A stretch of 64,000 bases of DNA, taken from positions 1 through 64,000 of the forward strand of contig CALVCV010000005.1 in NCBI GenBank assembly GCA_944326155.1, written 5' to 3'. Both the position numbers and the translations under genes were made by a program. Under the pieces are notes generated by a model. It was not told the DNA's origin. It ran no database searches and saw nothing but the letters and a program-made list of their open reading frames with translations. This document shows positions 56,521-57,424 of this stretch, piece by piece. The stretch comes from an uncultured Bacilli bacterium (GTDB taxonomy: Bacteria; Bacillota_I; Bacilli_A; ML615J-28; CAG-313). The stretch's first letter is position 1. The number at the start of each line of letters is the position of its first letter.

Positions 56521-56530
56521 ACAAAATATA

Positions 56531-56560
56531 AAAAACGAGTAGTAAACCTACTCGTTTTTT
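56531..56560. terminator. Terminator of clpB
   Basis: AAAAACGAGTAG pairs with CTACTCGTTTTT around TAAAC, followed by a further T. Confidence 0.9.
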
Positions 56561-56592
56561 ATGATAAAAAGTTAAGAATAAAAGTTTTTATT

Positions 56593-56622
56593 TTGGACAA
56601 AATGTCTAAAATAAGATATAAT
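56593..56622 (+). promoter_or_regulatory. Promoter of the AlkD-like gene
   Basis: TTGGACA region and TATAAT at 56617, spacer 17-18. Only 15 bases separate the -10 from the ATG, so the 5' leader is very short. Confidence 0.6.
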
Positions 56623-56637
56623 ATGGAGGGTGAAAAT

Positions 56638-57336
56638 ATGTTAGAAGAATTTTATCAATTAAAGGATGAAACAAAGGTTGCATTTATAACAAAAATTGCT
56701 AGTACAAACATACCATCTTTAGGTATCACTATCCCAAAAATTAAAACTTTTGTCAAAAGTCATGATATTACATATGATACACTAGATCAAATTCCACTCA
56801 ATCAATATATTGAACAAGATGTGCTATATGGTTTATTTTTAAATAAGCTTGCTAAAAATAAAGATAAAGCATATTATCAGCATTTTTTAGCATATGTAAA
56901 ATATTTAGATAACTGGATTACGTGTGATACGTTTGTGTCAAGTACAAAATTTAAACTTGCCGAATATGACCAACTTTATCAAATTATTAGCTATCTTTTA
57001 AAACAGGAAGGTATTATGACTAGATGTGGATTGGTACTATTAAAAAAATATTTTATTAAAGAAAAACCATTTGATGAAATTTTTAAATTAATCAAAACTA
57101 TCCAATATGGGTTATATTATGTTGATATGGGATGTGCTTGGTTGCTTGCAACAATGGCCTGTTTTGACTTTGAGTATATATATTCCCATCTTGATGAAAT
57201 TGCTAGTATGTCTTTTTTCGTTTATAAAAAAACGATCCAAAAGATGAAAGAGTCATATCTAATCACACCTTTTCAAAAGGATAGATTAAAAAAATTTGTG
57301 CGTATAGCTCAGAAGGACAGAGCAGCTGCCTCCTAA
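56638..57336 (+). CDS. AlkD-like DNA alkylation repair protein
   Basis: 232 residues of HEAT-like repeats. DNWITCDTF matches the active-site region of AlkD (D-N-W-x-x-x-D), and GCAWLLATMACFDF and KTIQKMKESYLI match later repeats. AlkD excises positively charged alkylated bases such as 3- and 7-alkylpurines. GGAGGG is seven bases before ATG 56638. The frame does not stop before tRNA-Arg: the last 12 residues (VRIAQKDRAAAS) are read from the tRNA and the stop TAA lies in its anticodon loop. Family members normally end just before this point. Confidence 0.85.
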   Translation: MLEEFYQLKDETKVAFITKIASTNIPSLGITIPKIKTFVKSHDITYDTLDQIPLNQYIEQDVLYGLFLNKLAKNKDKAYYQHFLAYVKYLDNWITCDTFVSSTKFKLAEYDQLYQIISYLLKQEGIMTRCGLVLLKKYFIKEKPFDEIFKLIKTIQYGLYYVDMGCAWLLATMACFDFEYIYSHLDEIASMSFFVYKKTIQKMKESYLITPFQKDRLKKFVRIAQKDRAAAS

Positions 57337-57374
57337 GCAGCAGGTCGGATGTTCGAATCATCTTACGCACGCCA
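57298..57374 (+). tRNA. tRNA-Arg (anticodon CCT)
   Basis: Full cloverleaf: acceptor GTGCGTA/TACGCAC with discriminator G and encoded CCA, D stem GCTC/GAGC, anticodon stem GCTGC/GCAGC with loop CTCCTAA (anticodon CCT at 57332-57334), T arm GGATG-TTCGAAT-CATCT with one G-U. Decodes AGG. It overlaps the end of the AlkD-like frame by 39 bases on the same strand and is followed by its own terminator. Confidence 0.95.
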
Positions 57375-57381
57375 GGAAAAT

Positions 57382-57405
57382 AAAAAGGAGGTATCTCCTT
57401 TTTTT
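57382..57405 (+). terminator. Terminator after tRNA-Arg
   Basis: AAAAAGGAG pairs with CTCCTTTTT around GTAT, followed by TT. Confidence 0.88.
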
Positions 57406-57424
57406 AAATAACTTATTATATAAG

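Follow-up and report, generated by a model that had tools for sequence, protein, structure and literature searches.

Here, we confirm that an AlkD-like gene ends inside the tRNA-Arg(CCU) gene that lies downstream of it on the same strand, and that this arrangement is real and rare. The gene is located in the window, i.e., the whole 64,000-nucleotide stretch of DNA that was analysed. The sequence-only reading had proposed that the frame meets no stop before the tRNA, and that the tRNA supplies 12 codons and a TAA within its anticodon loop; the former is borne out by the sequence, the ORF calls, ARAGORN and Rfam, and the positions given for the latter (57334-57336) proved to be exact. We consider it likely that the arrangement reflects erosion of the spacer in an alkD-tRNA operon, in which RNase P cleavage would turn the alkD message into a non-stop mRNA, the overlap being a by-product that is tolerated.

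The alkD-like frame and the tRNA in which it ends

Both the sequence and the ORF calls give a frame that is open from its ATG at 56638 to the TAA, with no earlier stop, and ARAGORN and Rfam agree on the first nucleotide of the tRNA (57298), on the strand of alkD (Table 1). Exactly 12 codons of alkD and its stop lie inside the tRNA. The T of this stop is the last base of the anticodon (Sprinzl position 36), and it is followed by A37 and A38. In the species of this window (G000) the junction rests on one assembly.

Table 1. Features of the alkD-tRNA-Arg(CCU) unit and its surroundings in the window
Feature	Positions	Strand	Remarks
Inverted repeat, 15-pair stem; probable terminator of the upstream clp-type AAA+ ATPase gene	56528..56562		listed on the - strand; the + strand also ends in a T-run
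Promoter (predicted)	56593..56622	+	TGGACA (56594-56599), 17-nt spacer, TATAAT (56617-56622); 11/12 matches
GGAGGG, Shine-Dalgarno-like	56625..56630	+	read from the sequence
alkD-like CDS, 232 aa	56638..57336	+	residues 1-220 before the tRNA; residues 221-232 (VRIAQKDRAAAS) tRNA-encoded
Seven-A run directly 5' of the tRNA	57288..57294	+	shifting either way gives no stop before the tRNA
tRNA-Arg(CCU), 77 nt, CCA encoded	57298..57374	+	ARAGORN and Rfam; anticodon 57332-57334
TAA stop of alkD, tRNA nt 37-39, in the anticodon loop	57334..57336	+	base 36 with A37 and A38
Probable intrinsic terminator, AAAAAGGAG GTAT CTCCTTTTT	57382..57407	+	hairpin listed on the - strand; T-run read on the + strand

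An assembly or sequencing error could have hidden a true stop before the tRNA, as the genome is a draft, probably a metagenome-assembled one, and a run of seven A stands 3 nt 5' of the tRNA. However, no single insertion or deletion in this run creates a stop before the tRNA, an independently assembled congener (G004) has an overlap too, and the alkD frame is intact up to its expected end; we therefore regard such an error as very improbable. A frameshift error in the A-run itself was rejected, as none of the frames meets a stop ahead of the tRNA: from the run to the tRNA both neighbouring frames are free of stops, one of them ending at tRNA nt 8-10 and the other past the tRNA. The in-frame A AAA AAA at 57288-57297 has the look of a -1 frameshift site 3 nt 5' of the structured tRNA, and a -1 shift there would read through the entire tRNA. 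The site is missing from G004 and is probably due to chance in an AT-rich genome.

The frame encodes a recognisable protein. It matches PF08713 with 37.3 bits (cut-off 21), a PDB search with a profile built from the proteins of the five congeners hits Bacillus cereus AlkD (E = 5e-5), and the best Foldseek matches of the predicted structure are B. cereus AlkD structures, with a probability of 1.00 and TM scores of 0.70-0.72. Weak sequence matches to an unrelated toxin in the PDB were dismissed as chance, since AlkD is what both the profile search and the fold search return. Residues W93, D97, R129 and W168, invariant in the five species, align with the AlkD active site, which we take to be W109, D113, R148 and W187 in the B. 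cereus enzyme; chain 3bvs_A was used in this alignment, with an inferred residue offset of 2. Judged from sequence profile and structural model, the frame is thus a member of the AlkD-type DNA glycosylase family, with putative alkylbase excision activity, and not a chance ORF. The profile match ends at position 217 and the model confidence is 88 for residues 211-220 but 57 for residues 221-230, so the AlkD domain is predicted to end where the tRNA starts. No counterpart of the 12 tRNA-encoded residues was found in relatives when the congeneric proteins were aligned.

The tRNA gene scores 65.6 bits in Rfam (cut-off 29), and the minimum-energy fold of the isolated tRNA is the standard cloverleaf; when the tRNA was folded in its mRNA context the outcome swung with the chosen flank length. 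Between the gene of G000 and that of G003 and G004 there are 17 differences; the acceptor and anticodon stems account for six paired changes (3-71, 4-70, 5-69, 28-44, 29-43 and 30-42), a pattern which looks as expected with selection for structure. No other tRNA-Arg(CCU) was found in the G000 genome, where arginine tRNAs with the anticodons UCU, ACG and CCG are also present.

Transcription of alkD and the tRNA

The footprint TTGGACAAA-N6-AAAATAAG-N-TATAAT precedes alkD in all five species, and in each of the five genomes it occurs without mismatches at one site. A consensus scan of the + strand found no promoter-like site of at least 9/12 between 56902 and the tRNA; just before the tRNA the best score is 7/12 in G000 and 6/12 in G004, as compared with 9-11 of 12 for the other 14 tRNA units of G000. 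Downstream, inverted repeats and T-runs directly 3' of the tRNA could be read by eye in G002, G003 and G004, in line with the probable terminator of G000, and the genes beyond the unit differ among the species examined. On the upstream side, the inverted repeat at 56528-56562 is a probable barrier that would isolate the alkD-tRNA unit from upstream transcription. Given the promoter conserved in five of five species, the lack of a recognisable promoter of the tRNA in G000 and G004, and the terminator after the tRNA, it is well supported by these sequence signals that alkD and tRNA-Arg(CCU) are co-transcribed from the alkD promoter, on which the tRNA would depend. Co-transcription, on which the sequence-only reading relied, is thus supported.

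The tRNA might instead be driven by a cryptic promoter inside alkD, and the overlap would then matter little to most transcripts. Our promoter test was a consensus match, which non-consensus sites would escape, and in G002 a TATAAT overlaps the end of alkD. However, such a promoter is opposed by the scan from 56902 to the tRNA and by the low scores before the tRNA in G000 and G004, and no promoter but that of alkD was found to be conserved; we hold this explanation to be decidedly unlikely.

Ordinary bacterial co-transcripts of mRNA and tRNA exist, e.g., tRNA-tufB of E. coli, and RNase P excises the tRNA from them. The alkD unit would resemble this case in the excision of a tRNA from an mRNA transcript, but in tRNA-tufB the coding frame has a stop of its own that lies outside the tRNA. 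Another protein-tRNA co-transcript, with no overlap, is likely in G000 itself, where tRNA-Glu(CUC) (G000:C22:5980-6055, L080) lies 18 nt 3' of a 450-aa ORF; the counterparts of this tRNA in G001-G004 have low promoter scores (6-7/12).

Several features of the promoter region deserve a record. The distance from the -10 box to the alkD start is 6-17 nt across the five species, which would result in a very short leader, almost nil in G001 and G002. If transcription starts about 7 nt past the -10 box, GGAGGG may be partly lost from the message. In other genera tRNA-Arg(CCU) mostly has a good -10 box 9-16 nt upstream and usually stands alone. This proximity of the -10 box to the start of alkD, taken with the lone tRNA promoters of other genera, hints that an old tRNA promoter may have become separated from its tRNA by alkD. 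In this species the -35 region is embedded in a near-perfect 10-bp inverted repeat at 56590-56612 (ATTTTGGACA AAA TGTCTAAAAT). This repeat may be an operator; its right arm is not conserved among congeners. All five species carry the element AAAATAAG within the promoter spacer (56600-56616); a tRNA-Ser unit in G001 and G002 is preceded by similar sites, which have 2-3 mismatches.

The junction among relatives

The sequence-only reading had suggested comparing the junction in relatives. The order of the two genes is kept, as tRNA-Arg(CCU) directly follows alkD in all four congeners (G001-G004), and the position and frame of the stop vary. In G000 the overlap is 39 nt. In G004 it is 10 nt, in another frame, with a TAG at tRNA nt 8-10. 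The stop precedes the tRNA in the remaining three species, by 6 nt in G003, where it is a TAG, by 22 nt in G002 and by 23 nt in G001. No tRNA adjoining alkD was found at 24 other loci, taken from other genera of the order and from two genomes of other families. A search for further congeners returned the same four and one distant match, and 43 genomes of the order added none.

The AlkD tree has the topology ((G001,G002),(G000,(G003,G004))), with support of 100/99 for the clade of G000, G003 and G004 and of 86/89 for G003 and G004 as sisters. As the short and negative spacings fall within one clade, the short spacing probably arose once. On this tree, the overlap itself would have arisen either twice, or once with the stop regained in G003.

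How unusual the arrangement is, and how much of it needs explanation, can be judged from the other tRNA genes of the genus. An ORF of at least 100 aa enters a tRNA in 2 of 127 tRNA genes of the five congeneric genomes, i.e., in G000 and in its G004 ortholog, in a survey that is incomplete for G003 and G004 (12 and 18 tRNAs scored). An internal stop is present in 77% of tRNA-frame combinations, most commonly the TAG at nt 8-10, so a stop in the anticodon loop calls for no special explanation; once the native stop is lost, ending inside the tRNA would be the default. In the alkD frame of G000, the tRNAs of G001-G004 have a TAG at nt 16-18, and the anticodon-loop stop is reached in G000 only because its nt 16 is A. 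This A16 was considered as a sign of selection and rejected as unremarkable, being present in 11 of 108 tRNAs here.

Known overlaps and the origin of the junction

The closest published parallel is the overlap of selB with selC, for which protein and tRNA were proposed as alternative products (Mukai 2021, PMC8124441). That work claims the first report, in 2021, of an overlap between a bacterial protein gene and a tRNA, for selB-selC only. Partial overlap is described there for Dyella, Luteibacter and a Nitrospirae lineage; in Dyella and Luteibacter the selB stop falls at tRNA nt 46-48, and in close relatives it lies before the tRNA (PMC8124441). Our case shares with the partial type a complete same-strand tRNA downstream, a stop inside it, and a non-stop mRNA proposed to arise after processing: a real protein frame enters the tRNA and terminates within it. 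It differs in that SelB binds Sec-tRNA and its stop position is conserved, whereas here an unrelated repair protein is joined to tRNA-Arg(CCU) and both stop and frame vary within a genus. The conserved stop of the overlapping selB relatives has no equivalent between G000 (nt 37-39) and G004 (nt 8-10), which argues against a shared selected function and not against the partial-overlap geometry. By its sequence layout, alkD-tRNA-Arg(CCU) can thus be placed with the rare selB-selC geometry, with no claim of shared regulation. The geometry and the idea of either protein or tRNA are already published for selB-selC; within the open-access literature searched, the gene pair appears to be new.

Two further comparisons can be drawn. 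Alphaproteobacterial selB genes contain the entire selC tRNA (PMC8124441). They resemble our case in the sense-strand overlap and in the translated tRNA forming a C-terminal extension, but translation runs through the complete tRNA and the selB stop often overlaps the start of the following gene, whereas alkD reads only the first half. Compact animal mitochondria, e.g., those of Armadillidium vulgare, have overlaps of tRNA and protein genes, as cited in PMC8124441; to the extent that they are treated there, the conflict between tRNA excision and the overlapping message appears to be the same, and the organelle differs in having its own processing and rescue systems.

The selB-selC model raises the question of whether alkD is subject to a selected switch, by which each transcript would give either AlkD or tRNA-Arg(CCU), and AlkD would be kept low or tied to translation or RNase P. 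The geometry permits it, the rescue and processing genes are encoded, and two congeners overlap, independently or persistently. On the other hand, no overlap is seen in three of the five congeners, G000 and G004 disagree in both the position and the frame of their stops while the selB stop of Dyella and Luteibacter is conserved, AlkD has no known link to tRNA-Arg(CCU), and the tRNA-Arg(UCU) of the same genome could read AGG by wobble. We consider the switch rather unlikely. In its strongest form, with AlkD made correctly only before RNase P acts, most of it therefore tmRNA-tagged, and the arrangement selected at least twice in the genus, it seems improbable; if true, the AlkD level would report RNase P activity or the speed of translation. 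Presence of the overlap in two of five species at this one locus, and at no other surveyed tRNA of the genus, could nevertheless reflect mild selection.

The sequence-only reading had offered both a purposeful coupling of repair protein with tRNA and a fusion by insertion or deletion. The fusion fits better, since the overlap is missing from three of five congeners and the two overlaps differ in frame and stop, and the coupling fits less well; we found nothing that links AlkD functionally to tRNA-Arg(CCU). Likewise, the variable junction favours tolerated spacer erosion over a conserved switch.

We therefore propose the following course for spacer erosion. Promoter, alkD-like gene, tRNA-Arg(CCU) and terminator would form a two-gene unit, the spacer of which would have shrunk in the ancestor of G000 and its two nearest congeners. 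The native alkD stop would then have been lost in G000, and in G004 either separately or with a later change, leaving translation to end at whatever stop the tRNA sequence offers. From an uncut transcript, with the tRNA still attached, alkD would be translated to its normal end. RNase P cleavage would take the stop away with the tRNA, as the sequence-only reading had argued and as the position of the stop inside the tRNA implies; the cut would release the tRNA and leave an alkD message without a stop, and ribosomes on this message would be rescued by tmRNA/SmpB, with tagging of the products. The genome encodes RNase P RNA, tmRNA and SmpB. We infer such a competition between RNase P and the ribosome, with non-stop rescue; the overlap would be a by-product of the erosion that is tolerated, perhaps since the cell requires little of either product, and would not be selected regulation. 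One genus with an unrelated gene pair would thus hold the intermediate stages, from gaps of 22-23 nt through one of 6 nt to overlaps of 10 nt and 39 nt, a natural series for the competition of ribosome and RNase P on one transcript, which also bears on how much non-stop mRNA a cell tolerates.

A similar closeness is observed in another genus of the order (G023, L049:954-1570), where the TAA of a SpoU-family RNA methylase gene abuts tRNA-Arg(CCU) with a 0-nt gap, and only a weak promoter-like site (7/12) lies upstream of the tRNA. Judged by sequence, a protein gene appears to have come up against tRNA-Arg(CCU) independently in this genus.
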